Below are positions 3,101 to 30,558 of a DNA stretch of 64,000 nt, in pieces. Every line of letters starts with the position of its first letter. Positions within the stretch are counted from its first letter, which is position 1. Origin of the DNA: Vibrio penaeicida. Lineage in GTDB: Bacteria; Pseudomonadota; Gammaproteobacteria; Enterobacterales; Vibrionaceae. Made by a program: the position numbers and the translations under genes. The notes beneath the pieces are model-generated. The model had not been told where the DNA came from. It ran no database searches and saw only the letters and a program-made list of their open reading frames with translations. The DNA is taken from assembly GCF_019977755.1 (NCBI RefSeq), contig NZ_AP025146.1:1-64000 (forward strand), in the 5' to 3' direction.

Positions 3101-4225
3101 TTAAAGCTTGTACTGCAAAAAACAAGATTTGGTGTTGTATTCTGAGTCCTTTGGAGCGACAAATGCCCAACTTTCCTTGTTAACGCCAACCACTAGGGTT
3201 TCACCGTCTAGTTGAGTAGTAACGTCACGAATCATCTTGAGCTGTAGATTAAACTGACTGGTTTCACCAGTGATTAGGTCAGCATCTAGGACTTCTTTTG
3301 AGCCTGACTTTGGATCTTGTAACGTCAGCTCGTTGGCTTTGAACTCCATAACTAATCCAACTTTGTCTTGCTCTTTCACACCTGCTGCAAATCTACGAAT
3401 TGCGCTTCGAAACTCAGTGCTGTTTACTTCACAAGCAATCACTTGTTCTGATTGGGTTTTGGTTTGTAAGTCGGGGTACATTTGGCAACATACAGAGGAA
3501 GTTAGAATCCCAACTTGAGGTACTATCAAACGAACTTGGGAACTGTTGAACATTAATTCAACTTCCAGATCGGAGTAGGCTGAGAAGTTACTGAGCAAGT
3601 CAATTACTCGCTTTGGCATCAGTAAATCAGGGGTATCTGACGTTACAATGTCACATGGGAATTTCGCCTCACAACATTTCAGACCGTCAGCCGAGAAAAT
3701 AGAAACGAAGTCCTTTTCTATCTTCATTAGCGTTGATCCCAAAAACATCCGGTCACTAGGGAGTTTATTTAGGTTCTGAGTCGCTGCCCACGCCACAGAA
3801 GTCAATGCATCTTTCAAAATGGACAGCTTGACCTTAATGTGGCTATGCCCCTCTCTGAATGCTTGTGTTACTGGAAAGCCCTCAATGGGCATAACTTCAA
3901 TTGTATGGCGAGATCGACCTGACTTAAAAATCAGTTTGGTTTGTTCTTCGTTCAAAGAAATGTTGATGTTTTTTTCAGCATCGTAGGTTTTCACCAAATC
4001 AAAGATTCGCTTTGCATCTACGACAAAGGGCTGAAAATCTTCGATGGACTCGGCAACACAAAAAAGGTTGGCTTCTAGCCCGTTGTGAACGGCACTGACT
4101 TTAATGGTATTGCCTTGCGCTTCAACCTTTAAGCACTCAGAGAAAGCCTTATCACTTTTTCCAGTACAGTTTGTTGGTGTGGCAAGAGCAGCAATAAGGT
4201 TAACTTTCTTGATAATGATCTTCAT
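3101..4225 (-). CDS. dnaN: DNA polymerase III beta sliding clamp homologue
   Basis: Processivity clamp that encircles DNA and tethers polymerases. Length (374 aa) matches chromosomal DnaN (about 366). Family features include the N-terminal strand MKIIIKKVNLIAAL, the conserved opening of the third domain (EVNSTEFRSAIRRFA near residue 265) and a C-terminal region ending CFLQYKL. It lies 77 bases after the ThiF/E1 gene in the same direction with its own TTGTCGG element. A clamp gene on a plasmid is unusual. It may serve plasmid replication, or be a target or partner of the ubiquitin-like module. Assignment to the fold is good; function on the plasmid is inferred. Confidence 0.85.
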   Translation of the reverse strand: MKIIIKKVNLIAALATPTNCTGKSDKAFSECLKVEAQGNTIKVSAVHNGLEANLFCVAESIEDFQPFVVDAKRIFDLVKTYDAEKNINISLNEEQTKLIFKSGRSRHTIEVMPIEGFPVTQAFREGHSHIKVKLSILKDALTSVAWAATQNLNKLPSDRMFLGSTLMKIEKDFVSIFSADGLKCCEAKFPCDIVTSDTPDLLMPKRVIDLLSNFSAYSDLEVELMFNSSQVRLIVPQVGILTSSVCCQMYPDLQTKTQSEQVIACEVNSTEFRSAIRRFAAGVKEQDKVGLVMEFKANELTLQDPKSGSKEVLDADLITGETSQFNLQLKMIRDVTTQLDGETLVVGVNKESWAFVAPKDSEYNTKSCFLQYKL

Positions 4226-4302: not shown

Positions 4303-5097
4303 CTAGGCAGCCTTTGAGTACCCGAAATACGATGCCCAAATGTCTGGGTTTATTGGCATGACTGTGGTTTCAAAATTCTTACTGAAATCGAAGTAGACAG
4401 CGTGATAGTCGAGACTGCCTTTCGTGACAAACTGGTTCAGCATTTTGGCTGCGATATTGGCACACATGGCATTCACCAGTACGCCTTGCGAATTAAAGCT
4501 TTCGGCTGCGCTACACGAACGTTTTGGGTTATCAACCACATCACGAATTTCAGGGTTGAGGTCAACGACATTTGGGACTGCATCCCTAACTTGTGTTGAA
4601 AATACATGACCAAAAAACACGTTTCCTGTATCACGTTCATTACCAAGGTCGAGCCACAAAGCTTTACTCGTAGTTCGCAGTTTTTTTGCTTCGTCACTGA
4701 TTTGTGCTCGAAGCTTGGCTGAATCAACACACGTAACAAGAATGTCGTAATCATCAGTCATCAACTTTGCAATTTCACTTGCTGTTAAATGACGTTCGAT
4801 TGAGTCCCATTGGGTCTTTCTACCAAAAAGGTTAAAGCGGTTCACAACAAGACTAGCTTTGTTATAGCCAACGTCTGCTGCCCAAAAATTTTGACGTAGG
4901 GTATTCGTCTCACTCACTGTACTTCCATCGGCTACCAAAAGTTCGATACCGAAGTCATGCCCCATTTCTGTCAGATAGGTGTGAAGTCGATAAATTGAAT
5001 TGGTAAATGCTGCCCCATTGCCCCCTGCTCCTACTTGCAAAATACGGATGGGACGTTTCTGGTATTCCAGTGGACATACTAAAGTGTTCGTATTCAT
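4303..5097 (-). CDS. PRTRC-system ThiF family E1-like adenylating enzyme
   Basis: Predicted to adenylate the C-terminal glycine of the ubiquitin-like protein C and pass it on, as E1/ThiF/MoeB enzymes do. The 264-aa protein has the nucleotide-binding loop VGAGGNG (residues 22-28), an acidic residue at D57, the N65/R68/Q69 signature with K80 (NTLRQNF...GYNKA), and D125. C195 (in KRSCSAAES) is a candidate thioester cysteine. Its ATG overlaps the stop of the E2-like gene (TAATG), so the two are translationally coupled. PRTRC loci normally carry this gene next to proteins B and A. Confidence 0.88.
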   Translation of the reverse strand: MNTNTLVCPLEYQKRPIRILQVGAGGNGAAFTNSIYRLHTYLTEMGHDFGIELLVADGSTVSETNTLRQNFWAADVGYNKASLVVNRFNLFGRKTQWDSIERHLTASEIAKLMTDDYDILVTCVDSAKLRAQISDEAKKLRTTSKALWLDLGNERDTGNVFFGHVFSTQVRDAVPNVVDLNPEIRDVVDNPKRSCSAAESFNSQGVLVNAMCANIAAKMLNQFVTKGSLDYHAVYFDFSKNFETTVMPINPDIWASYFGYSKAA

Positions 5098-5840
5098 TAA
5101 AGGTTCTCCAATACAAATTTGACTGTATAGTTAAGCGGTTTCAATTGGGCATGATCGAAGCTGTCATTGTGCTTTGAGTTGATCAGGTAACGGTTGAGTT
5201 CAAAGCTTGAAATGTCATTCAATGGTTTATTGATATGTGTTCCGTTAGACACAGAAGAAAAGGCAATATCAATCAGTTCATCAACGAGTTGATTGCTATC
5301 CATACTAGGGTGTTTATTTGTGCCGAAGCATAAGTCATTACCCATATATAGGTTTGGTATAGGCGATATGAATAGCTCAGTGGTTTCTGTTGGGCGTTCA
5401 CTGCTCTTAATGGCATAGCAACGCAATTTTCCATCGCTATAAAACATCACATGAGCTGGCATTGGTACACTATGACTGTTGTTTTTCTTCGAGTTATCTA
5501 GAAATGTCATGGTGTAGTGCTTTGCTGGGGTATAAAACAATATCTCACTAGAACTTCGGTAAAGAATGCGACCATCAATGATCTTCCTTGATGATGAGCG
5601 TTCAGTACGGTTTAAATGGCTTGATAAGTGGTTAATCACGGAGGGTAGGCTGACATTCTTTGGACTGCCTAGTTCACCCTCTCTGACGGTGTGTTCGGTC
5701 ATAAAGACTTGAGAGCCTTGATTGGTTTTAACGTCATGCAGAAGCAACGCAGAGACTGTTTCCACTTTCTCGAAAATGGTCAAATCTATATGAGCGTCAT
5801 GTAAAGAGGTATGTGGTTCTAAAAATTCCAAGTTGGTCAT
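5097..5840 (-). CDS. Second PRTRC protein B-like, E2-fold paralogue
   Basis: A paralogue of the protein B gene at 9198-9929. Both share a spine of MP-x-H, then about 30-35 variable residues, then SP-x2-N-x-Y and a cysteine before glycine (here LCFGT, C171; NMCIGS in the other). In Pfam this family is a prokaryotic E2 (Prok-E2 D type), and the cysteine would carry the modifier. The chosen start is the ATG 58 bases after a TTGTCGG element; a TTG six bases upstream is less likely. It overlaps the E1 gene by one base, which suggests this copy works directly with the E1. Confidence 0.75.
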   Translation of the reverse strand: MTNLEFLEPHTSLHDAHIDLTIFEKVETVSALLLHDVKTNQGSQVFMTEHTVREGELGSPKNVSLPSVINHLSSHLNRTERSSSRKIIDGRILYRSSSEILFYTPAKHYTMTFLDNSKKNNSHSVPMPAHVMFYSDGKLRCYAIKSSERPTETTELFISPIPNLYMGNDLCFGTNKHPSMDSNQLVDELIDIAFSSVSNGTHINKPLNDISSFELNRYLINSKHNDSFDHAQLKPLNYTVKFVLENL

Positions 5841-5891
5841 CTTCAAGCCCTCGTTGTGTTCGATATTGTTACTTTACTTCGAACCTACCAA

Positions 5892-5898
5892 CCGACAA
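5892..5898 (-). promoter_or_regulatory. TTGTCGG element before second E2-like gene
   Basis: Lies 58 bases before the ATG at 5840. It sits in the gap just after the stop of the 67-aa gene, so E2-E1 can be expressed apart from the genes upstream. Confidence 0.55.
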
Positions 5899-6102
5899 TT
5901 AAGCAGGTGGCAACACCATTGGGTCTATCTGTATCGGTGTGCTTCTTAGCCTCGCATTAAAACGGAGCTTCTTAGTTTCATAATTTTTCACTGGAATTGC
6001 AGATAGTTCTGAACGTGAATCCTTACTCAATTTTGTGTTTATGGCTTTGTACTCGGTTTCAAATATCTCAGAGAGTTGAGCGTCTGTTGTAGGTGTGTTC
6101 AT
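5899..6102 (-). CDS. Hypothetical 67-aa protein in PRTRC block
   Basis: Not recognised. It is a polar, helical N-terminal half followed by a basic stretch and a proline-rich C-terminal end (MVLPPA). Its ATG follows the stop of the F-like gene by two bases, so it is the second gene of that operon. Its position between F-like and B-like genes recalls the small linker genes of PRTRC loci. Confidence 0.6.
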   Translation of the reverse strand: MNTPTTDAQLSEIFETEYKAINTKLSKDSRSELSAIPVKNYETKKLRFNARLRSTPIQIDPMVLPPA

Positions 6103-6104
6103 GC

Positions 6105-7064
6105 CTATTCCTCAGAAAGTTTGTTGAAAAATTGAATGAGATTTTCGAGTTGAGCGATGCGTTCAATAAACGCCTCTAAATAACCTTTGATGTTGCTTGA
6201 AGGGGAAGGAATTAGCCCAATGGCAACTGGCAAAGGGTCGTTGTTGTAGTCCTCCCAACGATCTTGAATCGTTTCATTTTCAATCTCTCTTTCGCTGAGA
6301 AGTACAGTGATTAATGTGGTAGGGCTTCGGGTGTAGTCAATTTCTAGTTGAGTGACATTGGCATCTTTCATTTTGTGGGTTGACGCTTCAATTCTGGTCA
6401 AAATTGAATCTAGTTCTTCCAGAGCTGATTCATCTAAGTTGTCCACATTATTCTGCCAACTTGAACGCAAGTCTTTGTCGAATAACCCTTTAAGAAACGG
6501 GCGGTATTCCTCTATAAATCCAATGAATTGATCATAAAATTCATCTTCAATATCATCTTGGTACTCAGACAAGACATCGATAAACTCATTAGAGGATATT
6601 GGATTTGATTGATTGGTTGCCTTTTTAATTAAGTCTTCATCTCTGAATACTTCGGTGATTGAATTAGTGATAAATCCGTACATTGAATCCAGAAGTCTTG
6701 CCATAGCAATCCCCCAAATCTGATGCCACTCTTTGGGTAATTGGCTTACTTGAAAATTGACGTAATTTGGAATAGTTGAATACATACGTAAATGAGGTAC
6801 TAAGTCAGAGCACTCATCCGTGAGTTTCAATTGTTGCCCCAATCCTAACGACAACGAAAATTCGTCATCAAGAATCTTCTGAGGGCTGCTGTCAATTGCG
6901 AGTACACCATCTACTACCCCAAGGTGGTTTCGTAGCGCATTGTCACAGCTTTTAAGATAATTGAACTTGGTTGAGCCTTCTTGAATTGAATCTTCACTAC
7001 AAGAATTTTTTACTACTTGGTGGGACTCGTTTAATACGCTTTTGGGAATGCTAACCTTGAACAT
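6105..7064 (-). CDS. Predicted PRTRC protein F-like
   Basis: An acidic 319-aa protein, largely helical, without signal or membrane segments. A stretch around residues 115-150 (MARLLDSMYGFITNSI) resembles in spacing and character the RLLSAISYSAMTID stretch of the F gene at 9920-10963, and it likewise precedes an E2-like gene. This suggests a duplicated F-B unit. The similarity is weak by eye and rests partly on gene order. The ATG is 57 bases after a TTGTCGG element, with a good AGGAGAGGG ribosome site. Confidence 0.5.
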   Translation of the reverse strand: MFKVSIPKSVLNESHQVVKNSCSEDSIQEGSTKFNYLKSCDNALRNHLGVVDGVLAIDSSPQKILDDEFSLSLGLGQQLKLTDECSDLVPHLRMYSTIPNYVNFQVSQLPKEWHQIWGIAMARLLDSMYGFITNSITEVFRDEDLIKKATNQSNPISSNEFIDVLSEYQDDIEDEFYDQFIGFIEEYRPFLKGLFDKDLRSSWQNNVDNLDESALEELDSILTRIEASTHKMKDANVTQLEIDYTRSPTTLITVLLSEREIENETIQDRWEDYNNDPLPVAIGLIPSPSSNIKGYLEAFIERIAQLENLIQFFNKLSEE

Positions 7065-7114
7065 AAGTACCCTCTCCTATTCGTTTCATCTAAATATTCC
7101 CACTTGATAGATGC

Positions 7115-7121
7115 CCGACAA
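7115..7121 (-). promoter_or_regulatory. TTGTCGG element before F-like gene
   Basis: 57 bases before the ATG at 7064. It is followed by TCAAGTGGGAA and then ATATTTAGATGAAACGA, sharing the first part with the copy at 42800 and the second with the copy at 4276. Confidence 0.6.
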
Positions 7122-7132
7122 TTGTTGAAACC

Positions 7133-7144
7133 TTTTCGCTTATT
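7133..7144 (+). promoter_or_regulatory. TTTTCGCTTATT element before 7175 gene
   Basis: Begins 42 bases before the ATG at 7175 and points rightward, back to back with the TTGTCGG element that serves the leftward gene. The two elements thus share one divergent intergenic region. Confidence 0.6.
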
Positions 7145-7174
7145 CAAAGGAATGAATGAAATGGAGTAAGGACA

Positions 7175-7609
7175 ATGATGAAACTGATAGAGACACTTGT
7201 ATGTTCAAAACAAAGGGATTTTGTGTTGAAACTTGCTACTGAAGTTAACATGACCCTTGCAAGCAGCTATGGTGCGAAAGAGTGCTACACTCTGCCCGAA
7301 ATTTCAGCGGCATTAACAGAGCATGGACTTCCTGTAAAAAGAAACGCACTAAACCGCATCAAAACCGACCCGATCATTGCTCACGTAATGTTTATGAATT
7401 GGAAACGATTTCTTGAGGTTTATTCAGAGAGTGGCTATCAACTAAACGATTACCTAAATCTGCGTTCCGCCTTAGCTAAGTCGTTGTTCAAAGGAACAGA
7501 GTTCAAGCAGAAATCAGATGCCGTATTAGTTAGCCCAACCGGATTAAGATTGGTCTATCAAACTAAATTATTTACTATTGAAGAAAATGGACAAGATAGA
7601 GATTTTTGA
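7175..7609 (+). CDS. Hypothetical 144-aa protein, HTH-like segment
   Basis: Function not recognised. Residues about 42-65 (TLPEISAALTEHGLPVKRNA) look like a helix-turn-helix, and the protein is basic there, so DNA binding is possible. It is one of only two plus-strand genes within the PRTRC block. A GGAGTAAGGACA ribosome site precedes the ATG. It overlaps the next small gene by 23 bases. Confidence 0.55.
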   Translation: MMKLIETLVCSKQRDFVLKLATEVNMTLASSYGAKECYTLPEISAALTEHGLPVKRNALNRIKTDPIIAHVMFMNWKRFLEVYSESGYQLNDYLNLRSALAKSLFKGTEFKQKSDAVLVSPTGLRLVYQTKLFTIEENGQDRDF

Positions 7610-7787
7610 ATGGTCTAGTGAGGGAGGTTCTTACAACCGCCACATCAAAGAAGACAACTTAGCATCATTCACAGAGAAGCTAGAGATAAATGGGTTTGAA
7701 TTAAAGATTCAAGCCATTTCAGGTTGGCGGCTTTACCAACGCTCTAATCATAGGATCATTGTCTCAATGACCTCTAGCGACTCTTAG
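7587..7787 (+). CDS. Hypothetical 66-aa protein
   Basis: Not recognised. The ATG at 7587 is preferred to the TTG nine bases upstream. Its start lies inside the end of the previous gene, which suggests coupling, and its end overlaps the end of the convergent gene by 14 bases. Charged N-terminus (KIEIFEWSSEGG), no membrane segment. Confidence 0.45.
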   Translation: MDKIEIFEWSSEGGSYNRHIKEDNLASFTEKLEINGFELKIQAISGWRLYQRSNHRIIVSMTSSDS

Positions 7788-8550
7788 ATTGCACTAAAGG
7801 GGAAGCACTTATGAAATCAATAACATTCCTATGAGTAACTCCCCTCCCCTGGTTAATGTTCTCAATTCTGTCAGCATTAGCAAAGACGTTATCTTTTACT
7901 CTTGAATAGAAAGATTCCAAATCTCTTAAAATCTCTTGGTCTAAGCTGAGTTGAAATGTGTCCGTCAGCTCTATGAGCTGTTCAAAGACAGACTTTTCAT
8001 GTTTAAAATCGAATGTATCTATACAGGCGAAAAATTGGGATTTTGAAATCTCTCGGTAGTTTGAGTGATTTCGAGTTGCGATACATGGGAAAAGTTTGCA
8101 AGCCATTCTACTTTGGCTGATATAGCACAGCATGGCCATGACTTCATAATACTTGAACTTATCGCACATAGTCATTTTGTGGTTTGGTAGCGGAGGAATA
8201 AGGCCATAACGGTTCGCCTGTAAGTACGCGCATAACGAAATCATCCTTTGTTCAATGGCATGATGTTCAAAGCGTTGTTTCCAGAACCTAGCATCAATGG
8301 TGTCTTTGTGCAGGCTACAATTTCTAGCAGGCACTGAGAAATAACGTTCACTGTTGATCTCAACAAGACAACCAAATCCATTGTTCACGGGCAGGACAAT
8401 GGGAGTATCAATGAGTTTGTTTCTTCTACGAATGACTGAATAACAGTCCTCTATTATCAAGCGGCCAACCAAGCGATATGGGTTTGAAGTAAGAACATAC
8501 CAGTCGATGTAATCGACATTTTTTAAGTTGACCTGTTTTGGATTAACCAT
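7774..8550 (-). CDS. Hypothetical 258-aa protein
   Basis: Not recognised. It is a soluble protein with a basic N-terminal third, several cysteines (MACKLFPCIATRN near residue 155) and an acidic helical C-terminal third. It lies downstream of the protein A-position gene but has its own TTTTCGCTTATT element 43 bases upstream, so it probably belongs to a different regulon from the F-B-A operon. No catalytic motif could be assigned. Confidence 0.6.
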   Translation of the reverse strand: MVNPKQVNLKNVDYIDWYVLTSNPYRLVGRLIIEDCYSVIRRRNKLIDTPIVLPVNNGFGCLVEINSERYFSVPARNCSLHKDTIDARFWKQRFEHHAIEQRMISLCAYLQANRYGLIPPLPNHKMTMCDKFKYYEVMAMLCYISQSRMACKLFPCIATRNHSNYREISKSQFFACIDTFDFKHEKSVFEQLIELTDTFQLSLDQEILRDLESFYSRVKDNVFANADRIENINQGRGVTHRNVIDFISASPLVQSKSR

Positions 8551-8581
8551 ATTGCATCACCTATTCACCAAGCTATACCTA

Positions 8582-8593
8582 AATAAGCGAAAA
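8582..8593 (-). promoter_or_regulatory. TTTTCGCTTATT element before 8550 gene
   Basis: 43 bases before the ATG. The sequence GTGAATAGGTGA about 25 bases further on is a degraded reverse copy, giving an imperfect dyad like the one at 13997-14038. Confidence 0.55.
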
Positions 8594-8616
8594 GTGATAA
8601 TCATTTTTGGGCTGTT

Positions 8617-9201
8617 CTAGGCTGAAATGGGCAGGTGGATAGGTGACAGAAGCTCTCCCTTGCTCGTTGCTCGCTCTATTAGCTTTGCAGCTACAGTCAA
8701 TCCAATAGCACTATTTTCTGGTTTTAACACGCTTGGCGTTAGATTGATTGATTCAAAGTCACAAGCCTCAATACGATCGTTGTATAGGGTCACGTATCGT
8801 GTATTTCGAGTTTGATAGGACGTACTGTGCAGTGATGGTCTGAGCAGCATTAAATCAGAAGAAAAATCCGACTGGCAGATCACGTAAACAGTTTTTGAAG
8901 TGACATTGCGAATATTCTCCATATTACATCGTTTTACCGCAAAGTTGTTTTGACCTAACTTGAAGCGATTTATGATTGCTATGTCACTATTTAAGCCCGC
9001 CTCAAAGTCAAAATAGTAACCTTGCGCTGAATGGCTCTCGCCAACAATCGTCTCCGTACTTGGTGAATCAAGTAAGAATAGGTCGAACCTATACTTAGTC
9101 ATACTATCTAGATACTTAAACACGGCATTGAAATTCTGCATTGCAAGGGATTTGAAAGTCGCGGAACCATGTAGAACAATCGAAAATGCTGTCATCGTCA
9201 T
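8617..9201 (-). CDS. PRTRC protein A-position protein (194 aa)
   Basis: Occupies the place of PRTRC protein A, last in the F-B-A string, with its ATG overlapping the protein B stop (ATGA). Canonical protein A is linked to JAB-type peptidases, but I see no HxH-x7-S-x2-D metal motif; the only near match is ESHSAQGYY. So it may be a divergent or inactive A, or another protein. Mixed alpha/beta composition, no membrane segment. Position is good evidence of functional linkage; biochemical role is unknown. Confidence 0.5.
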   Translation of the reverse strand: MTMTAFSIVLHGSATFKSLAMQNFNAVFKYLDSMTKYRFDLFLLDSPSTETIVGESHSAQGYYFDFEAGLNSDIAIINRFKLGQNNFAVKRCNMENIRNVTSKTVYVICQSDFSSDLMLLRPSLHSTSYQTRNTRYVTLYNDRIEACDFESINLTPSVLKPENSAIGLTVAAKLIERATSKGELLSPIHLPISA

Positions 9202-9929
9202 TCACCTTGATTTTCTAACCATTGACCAAAAGTAGAACCCGTTTCTTTAAGCCAGTTCATAGGAAAGTGAGTTTTATGATTAAGACCAAGCAGCATCTGT
9301 TGAATATTATCTTCTGACTTCTCTTTCACGATTACGTCATGCTTTAGGTTCGAACCAACCGAAGAAAAGAACGATTCAACCCAGTGCTCAATATTTTCCA
9401 CTTCGAGGTTATGTTTTATCTTTACGCTGCCAATGCACATATTTCCGTTGGCCTTGTAGGTATTAAACGTAGGCGAATGGTATAGCTTTGTATTTGAATC
9501 AATCTGACCTCTATTGGTTTGTTTTATTGCGAACCCTCCAATAGAGAATTTACCACTCTGGTTTTTTACATAGATGATATGCGGTGGCATAGGTAACATA
9601 AACTGGCGATACCCCAGTGAAACTGAATGATCCAAAATTCGAAATAACTGTGGCTTTTGCGGCACATAGAAAATGAGCATGTTTGATACAGAAACAAGAA
9701 TGTTTTCAGGGAGGATTTGAATTTTGGCGTTCGGAATACATGCTCTTAATTGATCCAAGTGGCTTTCTCGCATCACTTCTCCTGACTGCAACTCCCCTAG
9801 CTGATTAATTTCATGTGCTGTGACAATGTTCTTCGGGCTATGATTTGGCGATTCATGTACAACGTAAGCTAATTTTGGTTGAAAATGAATGCCTGCCGAT
9901 TCAGCCTTTTTTTGAGTGTTTATTTGCAT
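9198..9929 (-). CDS. PRTRC system protein B (E2-fold)
   Basis: Predicted E2-like carrier for the ubiquitin-like protein C. The 243-aa protein carries MPMPPHIIYV near residue 115, the strand FSIGGFAI, then TKLYHSPTFNTYKANG and the candidate catalytic cysteine C165 in MCIGS. The layout LYHSP...N.Y..G..C.G is typical of PRTRC protein B. It starts 10 bases inside the end of gene F and overlaps the next gene by 4 bases, so F, B and the A-position gene are a tight operon. Confidence 0.85.
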   Translation of the reverse strand: MQINTQKKAESAGIHFQPKLAYVVHESPNHSPKNIVTAHEINQLGELQSGEVMRESHLDQLRACIPNAKIQILPENILVSVSNMLIFYVPQKPQLFRILDHSVSLGYRQFMLPMPPHIIYVKNQSGKFSIGGFAIKQTNRGQIDSNTKLYHSPTFNTYKANGNMCIGSVKIKHNLEVENIEHWVESFFSSVGSNLKHDVIVKEKSEDNIQQMLLGLNHKTHFPMNWLKETGSTFGQWLENQGE

Positions 9930-10963
9930 TGTGGAAGTCCTTTTGATTTCGCATAACGGTTATAAGCATCAATGACTTTCGCCACCTGACAACACTCCGA
10001 AATTGTTATCGTCAGATACCTTTCCAAATCAGCTCTATCTTTCAAAGCAATTGTTTGCGCGACTTCTTCTGCGTTCATTGAAGCTTGGCTTGTGAGTTGC
10101 TCATATAGAAAATTTTCAATTTCAGAATCAGTGGTAACGATTGTATGTAAGTGTAATGGCGCAAACTCAGTATCTTGGTGAAAGAACTCATTGATCTTCT
10201 GTAGTTCTGAATGCAATTTCTTTTGCGCAGCTTCAACGTCATCCAGCGCTTCGATTAGTGCAACAAACTCTGGGTCATTTAGATCTTGATACTCTGCTTC
10301 TAAAGAGTCTTTCTTATAGATAAGGTGAGTCCCGTTTTCACCAAAGGCAGAATCATACTGCTCTGCCAAATCGACCATTCCAAGGATTGTGTCGGGATCT
10401 AGTCCGTATTCCTCATTCAATGCGTAGCAAAGACTATCGGGCAAGTCCTCTTTTGTCAGAGGTTTTCCATCGTCTCGTTGAACGTTGGCTTCAAATATAT
10501 ATGGGAGGGACTCCTTTTCTTGAACATAGAAATAATCTAGAGCAGTGTCTATCGTCATAGCGGAGTAACTAATGGCGGATAGAAGTCTATATGTTAGGTA
10601 TCCATAGCTAGACTGGTTAGGATCAAGCTTAAATTTAATGGTACTGAAATCAAACTCAGCGTTGAGAGTGAACGCTCCACGATTTTCGAACTCGTCAGAT
10701 AGCCCATCTACTGTTAATGTCATCGAGCTTATCAAGTCATGAGCATAAGAGCATTCAACCCCCTCAGAACAACGATCTAAAATGTCATCTATCATATTTG
10801 AAAGCAGTAAATCTGGTTGCTTTTCATCGTTGTCAGCACCGAGCAAACAAATTAATACAGCTTCAAATTCATTGATTCTAGCGGCTTCTTTACTCAGGTA
10901 TGACTGTATGTTCAATTGTGTAGCATGAGAGCTTTGAGCTGTAATAGAGGGTGTTAAAAACAT
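9920..10963 (-). CDS. PRTRC system protein F
   Basis: A 347-aa acidic helical protein in the F position, between C and B. Its role in the pathway is not known. The ATG at 10963 is chosen over an upstream TTG at 11002, because the TTG would overlap a 59-aa gene that ends at 10971. TAGG lies just upstream. Two long predicted helices (residues about 250-290, VEAAQKKLHSELQKINEFF) could be a coiled coil. Identity rests on gene order plus general character. Confidence 0.65.
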   Translation of the reverse strand: MFLTPSITAQSSHATQLNIQSYLSKEAARINEFEAVLICLLGADNDEKQPDLLLSNMIDDILDRCSEGVECSYAHDLISSMTLTVDGLSDEFENRGAFTLNAEFDFSTIKFKLDPNQSSYGYLTYRLLSAISYSAMTIDTALDYFYVQEKESLPYIFEANVQRDDGKPLTKEDLPDSLCYALNEEYGLDPDTILGMVDLAEQYDSAFGENGTHLIYKKDSLEAEYQDLNDPEFVALIEALDDVEAAQKKLHSELQKINEFFHQDTEFAPLHLHTIVTTDSEIENFLYEQLTSQASMNAEEVAQTIALKDRADLERYLTITISECCQVAKVIDAYNRYAKSKGLPQCK

Positions 10964-10970
10964 AGTAAAC

Positions 10971-11150
10971 CTATATGCAGGGAGGCAGTAAATTCTGGTC
11001 AAAGTTATGTGGTGTTACTGACGTATCTTTACTGTTTTGATCACTAGCCACTTTAAGACTTGAGGCAACGGAAGAATTTTCTTCCATTGCCATTTCACCT
11101 TTGTCTCGTTGACTCGAAAGCAATTCAGCTACTCGATTCTCAAGGTTCAT
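10971..11150 (-). CDS. Small 59-aa protein between PRTRC C and F
   Basis: Short open frame beginning MNLENRVAELLSSQRDKGEM and ending LPPCI. It fills the gap between the C and F genes, with AAGGG eight bases before its ATG. The gene spacing (4 bases after C, 7 before F) supports a real gene. The N-terminal 20 residues look like an amphipathic helix; the rest is polar and probably disordered. Other PRTRC loci also have a small gene here, to my recollection. Confidence 0.6.
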   Translation of the reverse strand: MNLENRVAELLSSQRDKGEMAMEENSSVASSLKVASDQNSKDTSVTPHNFDQNLLPPCI

Positions 11151-11154
11151 TTGT

Positions 11155-11373
11155 TTACCCTTTAGTGCCTAATGACTTTTTGATAACACAAAATTCCAGT
11201 TTTCCATCAATGTCATTGCCTACACCAAGCTCACAAAAATGTAGCTCTGGGTACTGCTTACCATAACTTTCTGTCAATGCTTCTTTTGCATTTGTAATCT
11301 CTGGGAAAAGGTCTTGTAAAACCATTCCACCATATCGGAATTGGCGAATTACTTTTTCTACAATGGCTGTCAT
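11155..11373 (-). CDS. PRTRC system protein C, ubiquitin-like modifier
   Basis: A 72-aa protein matching PRTRC protein C, a beta-grasp ubiquitin-like family (Prok_Ub). The pattern is strand-turn-strand at the N-terminus (EKVIRQFRYGGMVLQDLFPE), a helix (KEALTESYGKQYPEL), later strands (GKLEFCVIKKSLG) and a C-terminal tail ending GTKG. An exposed terminal glycine is what an E1 would adenylate. It is 14 bases downstream of gene E in the same operon. Confidence 0.88.
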   Translation of the reverse strand: MTAIVEKVIRQFRYGGMVLQDLFPEITNAKEALTESYGKQYPELHFCELGVGNDIDGKLEFCVIKKSLGTKG

Positions 11374-11387
11374 AACATTCTCCTTTT

Positions 11388-11933
11388 TTAAAACATTTGA
11401 ACTTGTTGCGGTTCAGAATCAGCGTCTGGTTTTTCTGGGCTAGGTGACGATTCGGCTTTGGAAACTTCATTTGCAGTGTCTTTTTTGCCTACATTGCTAT
11501 TTTCTTTACCGACCTCAGAAGTCGCCTTGTCATCGCTCTTTGTTGTAGCTTGTTCTAGCATAGGAGTCTTATCAGCCGTCTTTGGTTTATCATTGGCTTT
11601 TCCACTGCTTCTCTTTTGGGTTTTTTTAGGTTTGGCGGTCAGCCCCTTAATAACTTCATCCAAGTTACTGCAAGCGGTCATTCGGGTGGTGGTTAAATCA
11701 GGTAGGTTCTGAGAAAGTGCTTCATCTATCTCTTGTGGTGTACCTGTTAAACGGATTGGCGAGTTCAAAGCATGAGTAATCTCTTTCACTTGGTCGGTCT
11801 GCTTATCACATGCCATAGGCACAGGCATAATGAATAGAGAGAATTGATTAGCAGCAGGGTCAATACATTTGATGTTCAGTTCCATGCCTTTTGATTGCTG
11901 AATAAACTCAGCGAACGTTGTCATAAAGTTCAT
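11388..11933 (-). CDS. PRTRC system protein E
   Basis: First gene of the E-C-59aa-F-B-A operon. The 181-aa protein has a folded N-terminal half (MTTFAEFIQQSKGMELNIK; SPIRLTGTPQEIDEALSQNL) as in PRTRC protein E, then a lysine/serine/alanine-rich disordered tail of about 80 residues. The start at 11933 is chosen because it follows GAGGAAAACAAA and lies 56 bases after a TTGTCGG element; an in-frame start 24 codons upstream would place that element inside the gene. Confidence 0.8.
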   Translation of the reverse strand: MNFMTTFAEFIQQSKGMELNIKCIDPAANQFSLFIMPVPMACDKQTDQVKEITHALNSPIRLTGTPQEIDEALSQNLPDLTTTRMTACSNLDEVIKGLTAKPKKTQKRSSGKANDKPKTADKTPMLEQATTKSDDKATSEVGKENSNVGKKDTANEVSKAESSPSPEKPDADSEPQQVQMF

Positions 11934-11982
11934 TTTGTTTTCCTCTTTGATTGGCATTTTTATAATCACATGCAACAAAGAG

Positions 11983-11989
11983 CCGACAA
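11983..11989 (-). promoter_or_regulatory. Promoter-like TTGTCGG element of the PRTRC E operon
   Basis: TTGTCG as -35, then 16-18 bases to GATTATAAA, a good -10. This is the copy that looks most like a sigma-70 promoter. ATG is 56 bases downstream of the first T. Confidence 0.65.
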
Positions 11990-12015
11990 GTAAACCCGAG
12001 AACATTCAAATTAAA

Positions 12016-12257
12016 TTTTCCAAAAGATACCGGTATCAGAGGTTGGGGGATGGGCGGAATCGCTGCCGTTTTTTCCAAAAGATACCGGTATCAGATATTG
12101 GGGAATGGGTGGAGTCGCTGCCGTTTTTCCAAAAGATACCGGTATCAGATATTGGGGAATGGGTGGAGTCGCTGCCGTTTTTTCCAAAAGATACCGGTAT
12201 CAGAGATTGGGGAATGGGTGGAATCACTGCCGTTTTTTCCAAAAGATACCGGTATCA
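12016..12257. repeat. Five tandem 55-bp repeats with 12-bp palindrome
   Basis: Copies of TTTTCCAAAAGATACCGGTATCAG start (at CCAAAAG) at 12020, 12075, 12129, 12184 and 12239, so spacing is 54-55 bp. Each holds the perfect palindrome GATACCGGTATC; the stretch between (GGGGAATGGGTGGAGTCGCTGCCG) is also conserved, and the last copy is partial. The array lies in the gap before the PRTRC E operon. Its form, short tandem units each with one inverted repeat, matches the F plasmid centromere sopC, so it is a candidate ParB site or an operator array. It is not a CRISPR, as there are no unique spacers. Confidence 0.9.
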
Positions 12258-12307
12258 GGCTTATAAGTCGTAAGCATTGCATGGTAGTAAAATGTGACCC
12301 AAAAAAT

Positions 12308-28224: not shown

Positions 28225-30225
28225 TTAAAGTGGTTCTTCATCGTACAAACTAGGGTCTTTATCCAAAAGATCTGAATAGACCTGCGCCGCAACGTATTCA
28301 AGATTACCTTCGCACCACTTCTTAATGTTATTTAAGCGATACGATTTAACGGAGTCGAGCAATTCTTGTACGGTCAGGTTCATATTAAAGTTGATCGCAA
28401 TGTACTCCTTCAATTGAAAGAACAGCTGTTCATCAACAACGAGGGAACCATAGCTAACCATCTTGAGCTCTTTTTGAAGTTTCAGCAAAGTAGCCATTGC
28501 TATATCTTCTTCAACATCGATGTACATAGACATGATATGGCTTATCTTCTCTAAGTGGTCAGTAGAATCATAAGCGCTAAGCAAGTACTCTCCGCCACCT
28601 ATGGTGAACTTTTTATAAAGAGCAGAGCGTCTGGTCGATGCAATGATAAAGTCGCGTTTTAGATCATTGGTGAAGACCTTGATTTTGCTATTTTGAATCG
28701 TAGATTTTACGGTTTCCTGATTACCATAGATTGGGTTAGGTAAAGTAGGGGCATTTAAGTCACCTTTACTCTCATCATATTTGGCCCCGGTCAGCTGAAT
28801 CATCTCTTCAGGATCAACAACAACATATACCAATTTCTCACCATCTGGATTTGTTCCAAATCTTAGGTGATAGCCACATAAGTTATATTGAAAGCTAGAA
28901 TCATTAACTAAATTTGAATGTTCATCAAACTTATAAAGCCTATCTAGATCTTTAAGCAGCTCTCTTTGCAATTGAGCAGCTGAACCCATGTAAAACATCT
29001 TCTCTTTAACTGTTTCAAGCAGAAGTGAGTCCTTTTCAACTCTCTCTCGGCGTAGGGTTAAGTAAAATAGGAAGGTCAACGGATTGCCAATAGCAATTTT
29101 AGATGGAATACCAAACAGTAGTTTTAAATCGGAAAGCTCAGTGATGATTGTTTGGTGTAACGTAATAATAAACAGTGAAGGTTTAGTTGTTAGGTTACCA
29201 TTATTATCATACTTTGGAGCAATAGAGGCATTTGTCTCTAGACCAACAATGTATTGAAAGTCTTTAGTTTTAAAAGCCTTAGATCTGTTATCAAGTGTTT
29301 GGCCTAAAAGATCTGACCAATTATAAATCGTTTCACGAAGCTCCAAGATGCTACGGTAGATAGAACTTCTCATCGGCCCACTGTCAGTGACACCAAGAAT
29401 GTTCATTAAATGCACCATCTTAATCGGGACAGAGATCTCCTGAAAAGCTTTCTCATACCTTTTGGTTCTTAACATTTTTGCATTAAAAGCAATAGCTAGA
29501 TTAAGAATTGCATTGAGTACCTGAAACGCAAATTGAGTAGTAATTTGGGTATGAGCTCGCGCATCGATTTCATACTTGGCAGTTACGTTGTTACCAGATC
29601 TATGAGTAAAGACTCTCTTATCAGATCGTTTTCCGACAGCTGTTTTTGGAGCAAGGGCTAAAAACTCAACTGGTATTACTTTATCGTGGTAGTACCAGCC
29701 TGTTGGCATCATATGTTGTTGAACTTCGACATCTTCATGACTAAGTTTGTGTTTTGATAGAAGAGAAGTGACACTTTCACGTGAGCTTTTATCATTAGAA
29801 TTTTTGCTTGTATCTAGCTTTAGAGAAGATGCTGAAATTGCCAAGAGTTCTGGAGTACTAAACTCATACACAGTGATACTATGTTCATTGGTGCCATTAT
29901 AAGAACATGGAATACTTTTCAATATGCCTTTGTTCAGAAAGTCAGCAACGTAAGCTCTCAAAGAGGCTGGTGGCGTTTTATAAAGCTTGGTTATTTCATC
30001 AAAAAGAACAGTGTTAGCAACAGACTTATTGATGTGCTTAGCTGATGCTGACAATAAATAGTGAAGAACTATCTTAGCTTTTGGGGCAAGTTTAAGTTTA
30101 GCTTCGTACTGGTCAATGACGGTTAAGAGATCTACCTCATGACCTAAGTAGTGGATGAAAGACTTCTTTCGTTTAACGGATTGTATTTCATTTAGATCAA
30201 TTAGATCCACTAACTCAATTGTCAT
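28225..30225 (-). CDS. RctB-family replication initiator
   Basis: About 666 aa, close to RctB (658 aa), initiator of Vibrio chromosome 2. Segments I recognise from RctB include DSGPMRSSIYRSI (RctB DSGPARDSIRDSI), NLCGYHLRFG (NLWGYHLTIK) and APTLPNPIYGN (APTLPNPLRNE), in the same order. RctB has several winged-helix domains that bind GATC-containing iterons and longer regulatory repeats, and both repeat kinds lie directly upstream here. The start is uncertain: ATG at 30225, or a GTG at 30267 whose context (ATGATCGGTG) overlaps a half iteron. Confidence 0.87.
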   Translation of the reverse strand: MTIELVDLIDLNEIQSVKRKKSFIHYLGHEVDLLTVIDQYEAKLKLAPKAKIVLHYLLSASAKHINKSVANTVLFDEITKLYKTPPASLRAYVADFLNKGILKSIPCSYNGTNEHSITVYEFSTPELLAISASSLKLDTSKNSNDKSSRESVTSLLSKHKLSHEDVEVQQHMMPTGWYYHDKVIPVEFLALAPKTAVGKRSDKRVFTHRSGNNVTAKYEIDARAHTQITTQFAFQVLNAILNLAIAFNAKMLRTKRYEKAFQEISVPIKMVHLMNILGVTDSGPMRSSIYRSILELRETIYNWSDLLGQTLDNRSKAFKTKDFQYIVGLETNASIAPKYDNNGNLTTKPSLFIITLHQTIITELSDLKLLFGIPSKIAIGNPLTFLFYLTLRRERVEKDSLLLETVKEKMFYMGSAAQLQRELLKDLDRLYKFDEHSNLVNDSSFQYNLCGYHLRFGTNPDGEKLVYVVVDPEEMIQLTGAKYDESKGDLNAPTLPNPIYGNQETVKSTIQNSKIKVFTNDLKRDFIIASTRRSALYKKFTIGGGEYLLSAYDSTDHLEKISHIMSMYIDVEEDIAMATLLKLQKELKMVSYGSLVVDEQLFFQLKEYIAINFNMNLTVQELLDSVKSYRLNNIKKWCEGNLEYVAAQVYSDLLDKDPSLYDEEPL

Positions 30226-30558
30226 CAGTCCATCACTGTTAGGTTCGTATGTTATGAATACTATCACCGATCATAAAATTTTCAACTTCCAGTTGGTGAG
30301 CTTGAAGAACGGATCGTCTAATAATCTTTAAACTATGTTTTATTTTTGTTTTTTAGATGATTAGAGATGATATTCATTGATATACGGTCATGGGATTGAG
30401 AAGTTAAGGATTGAAGTCTGTATGATCTTACACTTCAAAGCAGCCATGGATTATCTCCTGTAAGTCATTGCTTTCTATTGGTTAAGCATAATGCTGATAT
30501 GATCGTACGGTCTCGGGATTGATGGATAGCTGCAATGTATAGTTTTAGTCACGTTTTA

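Follow-up and report, generated by a model that had tools for sequence, protein, structure and literature searches.

The window analysed here is a stretch of 64,000 nucleotides from Vibrio penaeicida (positions 1 to 64,000 of NZ_AP025146.1), part of contig C3 in a 6.78 Mb genome of three contigs. It carries a locus that, on balance, reads as a PRTRC-derived plasmid core for ubiquitin-like conjugation, in which a single ubiquitin-like protein, C, and a single complete E1-like enzyme, ThiF, would serve two E2-like proteins, B1 and B2. This reading starts from what the locus displays directly, namely its gene content, the residues of its proteins, the paralogy of the two B proteins and the conservation of each in related plasmids. 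In the order of minus-strand transcription the genes are E, C, F1, B1, X and Y, followed, beyond a DUF6559 gene on the plus strand, by F2, a small protein gene, B2 and ThiF. B1 with F1, X and the closing gene Y belongs to arm 1 of the locus, and B2 with F2 belongs to arm 2. Eukaryotic ubiquitin systems characteristically branch in this way, with one ubiquitin-like protein and one E1 feeding several E2s.

Results

The complete ThiF (4303-5097, minus strand) scores 179.7 bits with the PRTRC model TIGR03736, above the cut-off of 144.75, and 44.9 bits with PF00899. The initial annotation had described an E1 with its nucleotide and N/R/Q residues and a candidate cysteine, and all of these are present (GAGGNG, D57, N65, R68/Q69, K80 and C195); the adenylation residues and C195 are invariant in 13 aligned ThiF proteins. 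C (11155-11373, minus strand) is likewise as first described, a protein of 72 amino acids with the C-terminus SLGTKG and hence a single terminal glycine, and its counterparts in V. alfacsensis and V. rotiferianus carry the PRTRC C annotation. C is the single PRTRC_C match in the genome, and ThiF is the sole PF00899 match on C3 (four in the whole genome), so both E2s probably share them. On the strength of these sequence matches, the likeliest and simplest scheme combines a single ubiquitin-like protein and a single E1 with two E2s.

B1 (9198-9929, minus strand) and B2 (5097-5846, minus strand) match the E2 family D model PF14460 (Prok-E2_D, cut-off 25) with 72.0 and 78.8 bits, respectively. 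They are diverged paralogues, 26% identical over 219 amino acids (E=8e-12), and the cysteines assigned to them beforehand lie exactly at Cys165 of B1 and Cys171 of B2 (the B2 numbering begins at the ATG at 5840), with x-Gly following in both. Conservation of these cysteines in homologues had been set as a test of the E2 assignment, and all 55 B proteins in the comparison (57 rows minus two identical ones) retain the cysteine. In B1 it stands in an intact Asn-x8-Cys-x-Gly setting, which is also kept in V. alfacsensis. A downstream column holds histidine in 38 of the 55 proteins, and B2 has its Thr-His shifted two residues downstream relative to that column. The overlap of B2 with the E1 gene, also reported initially, consists of one base shared by the B2 stop and the ThiF start (TAATG).

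The chemical steps, the sharing of the E1 and the division of targets are drawn from knowledge of the protein families. ThiF would adenylate the C-terminal glycine of C and then hold C on Cys195. C would be handed on as a thioester either to Cys171 of B2, which is translationally coupled to ThiF, or to Cys165 of B1, and the F-position proteins F2 and F1, together with their neighbours, would direct each charged E2 to targets of its own.

The doubling of the arms recurs in five other Vibrio plasmid records, three of which are diverged (41-70% identity in X, B1, B2 and ThiF). The nearest plasmids, from Vibrio penaeicida and V. rotiferianus, match at 98% over 8.3 kb. The two-arm order is also kept in V. 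alfacsensis pSEA2, where identity to the window is 39-58% in X, F1, F2, Y, the small protein, B1 and B2 and reaches 70% in ThiF; two further records match pSEA2 alike in B1, X, B2 and ThiF. X occurs in 5 of 72,556 plasmid records and, among 227 same-genus genomes, in the window's own only, and a search of 5.8 billion proteins returned one protein cluster (two by profile). Prok-E2_D is found in seven of the 227 same-genus genomes, with two copies only in the window's own, and in 2 of 100 relatives and 2 of 369 class genomes, the window's own being included in each. Among 42 ThiF loci from genome contigs, some of them short and some with distant ThiFs, 29 have one B, 13 have none and none has two. 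Searches with tblastn, of which at most 60 matches each were listed, hit 374 plasmid records at 382 places with the window ThiF and 331 records at 343 places with the second B of Deinococcus proteolyticus.

Several B genes also occur on plasmids of Deinococcus. D. proteolyticus pDEIPR02 has two Bs and two ThiFs, arranged as tandem F-B-ThiF units behind one C (locus L023, 5851-11096), with the Thr-His motif kept in the second B only. D. gobiensis P2 has two Bs and one ThiF annotated within about 9 kb, D. grandis (locus L077; AP021851.1, 184.3-195.3 kb) has three E2-D genes in about 11 kb and one ThiF in the record, and D. wulumuqiensis has four Bs and two ThiFs dispersed over the plasmid. The five records that were searched whole were chosen as known or suspected carriers of several Bs, and D. 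gobiensis was not among them. The initial annotation, whose interpretation is partly supported, took a doubled E2 to be undescribed. The doubling occurs in other Vibrio and Deinococcus plasmids, and no report of it in a PRTRC-type locus was found in the titles, abstract starts and passages covered (PRTRC, the ParB-related/ThiF-related cassette, bacterial ubiquitin-like operons and Prok-E2; subscription papers and preprints lay outside this scope). A functional study of PRTRC-type modules was likewise not evident at the level of titles and abstract starts, within the same scope.

In a tree of the 55 B proteins, which excludes D. gobiensis, B1 groups with V. alfacsensis B1 (support 100/99) and B2 with V. 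alfacsensis B2 (100/100). Since each pairs with its own orthologue, the doubling predates the divergence of these two types of Vibrio plasmid. The B1 and B2 arms are not joined with support and are placed with two Pseudomonas Bs at 55/82; the tree has long branches, and where the arms belong among the remaining Bs is uncertain. Six Bs of D. proteolyticus, D. grandis and D. wulumuqiensis make up a separate Deinococcus clade at 97/94. E2 doubling, judged from sequence, is rare but not unique to the window, and with these six Bs in a clade apart it probably arose separately in Vibrio and Deinococcus plasmids, that is, by convergence.

Ratios of nonsynonymous to synonymous polymorphism (pN/pS) between the window and V. 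rotiferianus pAM7, calculated from few differences (at most 33 per gene), are 0.05 for C, 0.04 for F1, 0.13 for B1, 0.15 for X, 0.15 for Y, 0.09 for F2, 0.10 for B2 and 0.07 for ThiF. The small protein has a ratio of 0.29 from one change of each kind, and E, with no synonymous difference and one other, yields no ratio. With values this low, neither arm looks like a remnant.

Besides B, the F-position gene and the gene in the ThiF position may have been doubled. F1 (9920-11002, minus strand; the start annotated in V. rotiferianus corresponds to 10963) is assigned from its C-F-B position, which matches that of an annotated PRTRC locus, and F2 (6105-7064, minus strand) is assigned by position. 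Neither matches a PRTRC F model; when they are compared with a profile of 13 F-position proteins, 7 and 12 of 100 shuffles, respectively, score as high, and the homology between F1 and F2 is weak (2 of 100 shuffles). Both are kept in V. alfacsensis, with 173 of 345 residues identical in F1 and 155 of 318 in F2. A protein of about 440 amino acids lies between B and ThiF in V. coralliilyticus (L007, 8665-9966) and A. salmonicida (L008, 8641-9999), and its score against F-position proteins is above all 100 shuffles, over 37 columns only; F alone may be doubled in these two loci.

Arm 1 closes with Y (7774-8550, minus strand), which shares 100 of 258 residues with its V. alfacsensis counterpart and has a weak match of 18 bits to the PADLOC model PDC-S50. 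The small protein between F2 and B2 (5899-6102, minus strand; 67 amino acids) shares 27 of 65 residues with its V. alfacsensis counterpart and ends in LPPA, a tail common to both plasmid types; in profile alignment it gives no convincing match to the C profile and is not considered ubiquitin-like. The DUF6559 gene between the arms (7175-7609, plus strand; PF20196, 29.7 bits, cut-off 27) stands at the same place in the V. alfacsensis and V. rotiferianus loci.

The PRTRC E-like protein E is encoded at 11388-12005 on the minus strand (the start annotated in V. rotiferianus corresponds to 11933). Just upstream of it, at 12016-12258, is a tandem array of 4.4 copies of a 55-bp unit. The perfect palindrome GATACCGGTATC occurs five times in the window, always inside this array (mean 0.00 over 100 shuffles). 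V. rotiferianus pAM7 has 13.5 copies of the 55-bp unit at the same place (L013, 6181-6915), and V. alfacsensis has another array upstream of E, with 102-bp units (L006, 5452-5747). The palindrome array could be an operator or a partition site.

At the other end of the locus a DnaN-like sliding clamp gene (3101-4225) adjoins ThiF, and DnaN-like genes are annotated near several other PRTRC-type loci. The protein at 1296-2534 has a weak match (17.7 bits) to a ParB model that is not of the PRTRC type. This plasmid setting, next to ParA, to the weak ParB match and to the DnaN-like clamp, suggests that the targets of conjugation may lie in plasmid maintenance. The third replicon also carries an RctB-like initiator (PF11826) at 28225-30267 of the window; initiators of the RctB type replicate Vibrio chromosome 2.

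The PRTRC ParB model (TIGR03734) has no match on C3, its single match in the genome lying on C1 with 127 bits, below the cut-off of 278.6. The JAB protein A (TIGR03735) has no match in the genome, and the control genomes gave none either; several single-B relatives are likewise without an annotated protein A. Prok-JAB matches are confined to C1 and fall below the cut-off, so that no dedicated JAB deconjugase was detected with these models. Since the plasmid gives no PRTRC ParB match, the locus is called, from its predicted proteins, a PRTRC-derived ubiquitin/E2/E1 core and not a full PRTRC system.

Alternative explanations

Several observations weigh against a PRTRC-derived core with a shared E1. 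The family assignment made in the initial annotation is borne out by ThiF, which exceeds the TIGR03736 cut-off; both B proteins exceed that of Prok-E2_D. Other scores lie below their cut-offs: B1 and B2 score 87.0 and 88.4 bits with TIGR03737, below the equivalog cut-off of 131.45; C scores 34 bits (E=2.4e-8) with TIGR03738, below the curated cut-off of 45.95, and 24.5 bits with Prok_Ub, marginally below 25; and E reaches 36.2 bits with TIGR03741 (cut-off 37.95) and 20.1 bits with Pfam PRTRC_E (cut-off 26). The basis for an E2 fold in the B proteins is the Pfam match plus a weak structural match. B1 and its V. alfacsensis orthologue lack the downstream Thr-His, and B1 might be inactive. Arm 2 may be its own transcription unit, because the opposite-strand DUF6559 gene divides the arms.

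The alternatives turn largely on X (8617-9201, minus strand), a candidate degenerate ThiF that sits behind B1 as the complete ThiF sits behind B2. By eye and in multiple alignment, X tracks ThiF from the first strand through a conserved NRF-[NK]-L stretch to a late helix. In the alignment, the catalytic motifs (GxGGxG, N/R/Q, Lys and the SCS Cys) are all lost in the X proteins of the window and of V. alfacsensis, which are 41% identical. Aligned locally with a profile of 17 ThiFs, X scores 21.6 over 117 collinear columns, a score reached by none of 150 column shuffles (mean 13.4, standard deviation 2.3, maximum 19.9) and, in another run, by none of 100; a reversed profile scores 15.0, and the scores for ten other protein groups from the loci are 12.7-16.9. 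Against the two closest ThiFs X attains an equal score, but over 18 columns only, in another region, and one of 150 shuffles reaches it. The ThiF hidden Markov model scores X at no more than about 1 bit and ranks it 170th (V. alfacsensis), 209th-210th (window) and 331st (V. rotiferianus) among 7885 open reading frames; a broader ThiF model scores it still lower. A single-sequence BLASTP comparison with ThiF gives E=0.021, and the window X has no match in Pfam, NCBIfam, PADLOC or PHROGs. Its AlphaFold2 model is of low confidence (pLDDT 32.5) and opens with beta-alpha-beta and a late helix, as expected of ThiF; no ThiF-like fold is among the 50 Foldseek matches listed. On these alignments, that X is a ThiF devoid of catalytic motifs is given somewhat less than even chances, and that it pairs with ThiF is more doubtful.

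In one explanation, X is the inactive half of a heterodimeric E1 with ThiF, comparable to SAE1-SAE2, which docks or licenses B1, and the whole F-B-E1 unit has been doubled. The position of X, its profile score, its low pN/pS and its preservation in V. alfacsensis argue for this, as do the opening of its model and the entire F-B-ThiF unit in tandem in D. proteolyticus; the near-zero model score, the short alignment to the two closest ThiFs, the BLASTP value, the poor fold prediction and the lack of database matches argue the other way, and the explanation, although compatible with a shared core, is rather unlikely. The fuller version, in which the doubled unit has one ThiF turned into a pseudo-E1 that pairs with the active ThiF in the manner of SAE1-SAE2 and the two E2s bring the same ubiquitin-like protein to different targets, is considered improbable.

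Non-catalytic and adaptor variants of E2 exist in eukaryotes, and B1 could similarly be a non-catalytic or E3-like adaptor that regulates B2 instead of carrying C to targets of its own. Its missing Thr-His and the lack of a recognisable E1 in its arm speak for such a role, whereas Cys165 and its surrounding motif are intact and conserved. Moreover, V. coralliilyticus, A. salmonicida and V. campbellii have single-B loci with a complete ThiF that are also without that histidine, so its absence from B1 is an asymmetry and no proof of inactivity; the adaptor role is unlikely. A recent accidental duplication or decaying remnant without a separate role would explain why X, if it is a ThiF, has lost all ThiF motifs, but is very improbable given that B1 and B2 are only 26% identical, that both arms persist as open frames in two plasmid lineages and that pN/pS is low in both.

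If a core with one C and one complete ThiF for two E2s is indeed what these plasmids carry, such modules, probably formed separately in Vibrio and Deinococcus, would be a minimal system for the origin of E2 specificity and of inactive E1 partners. Should X also prove to be a pseudo-E1 that pairs with ThiF, and the two E2s prove to carry C to different targets, the pairing of an active with an inactive E1 and the branching of E2s would have an independent bacterial origin. The two-E2 locus would also offer a handle on PRTRC-type modules.

Comparison with known systems

In the available passages of Iyer et al. (2006, PMC1779556), operon type 6d is described as a ubiquitin-like protein, a JAB protein, an E1, an E2 and an alpha-helical protein, and the E2 cysteine and downstream histidine are stated to be absolutely conserved. 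Type 6d and PRTRC are treated here as one type, on our own reading of those passages. The window agrees with this type in having C with a C-terminal glycine, B with a conserved cysteine, a ThiF E1, an F-position protein and E, in the order E-C-F-B-...-ThiF. It differs in having two Bs, probably two F-position genes, and X behind B1 where A or ThiF would be expected; in addition, no PRTRC ParB was found on its plasmid and no JAB protein A was detected. The PRTRC cassette is merely named on plasmids in the parts seen of two further papers (PMC7466150, PMC8562488), and transcriptome papers on Rhizobium tropici mention PRTRC frequently. The Deinococcus plasmids with several Bs (D. proteolyticus pDEIPR02, D. 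gobiensis, D. grandis and D. wulumuqiensis) resemble the window in having more than one E2-D gene and one or two ThiFs, and differ in the separate clade formed by six Bs of three of these plasmids and in that both ThiFs of D. proteolyticus are complete and 50% identical to each other.

Among other bacterial systems, the Cap2/Cap3 module of CBASS resembles the window in its E1/E2-type conjugation through a single C-terminal glycine, which the sections available of PMC10097602 describe for Cap2 together with the conjugation of cGAS itself. It differs in that E1 and E2 are fused in Cap2 and cGAS is the conjugated protein; the window ThiF scores at most 19.7 bits with the PADLOC E1-E2 models. In eukaryotic autophagy, according to the passages available of PMC12355090, the E1 ATG7 serves the two E2s ATG3 and ATG10, and the same source gives SAE1/SAE2 as a pair of inactive and active E1. 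Compared by scheme and not by E2 family, ATG7 and the window locus share the passage from one E1 to two E2s, whereas ATG7 acts with two ubiquitin-like proteins and the window has one.

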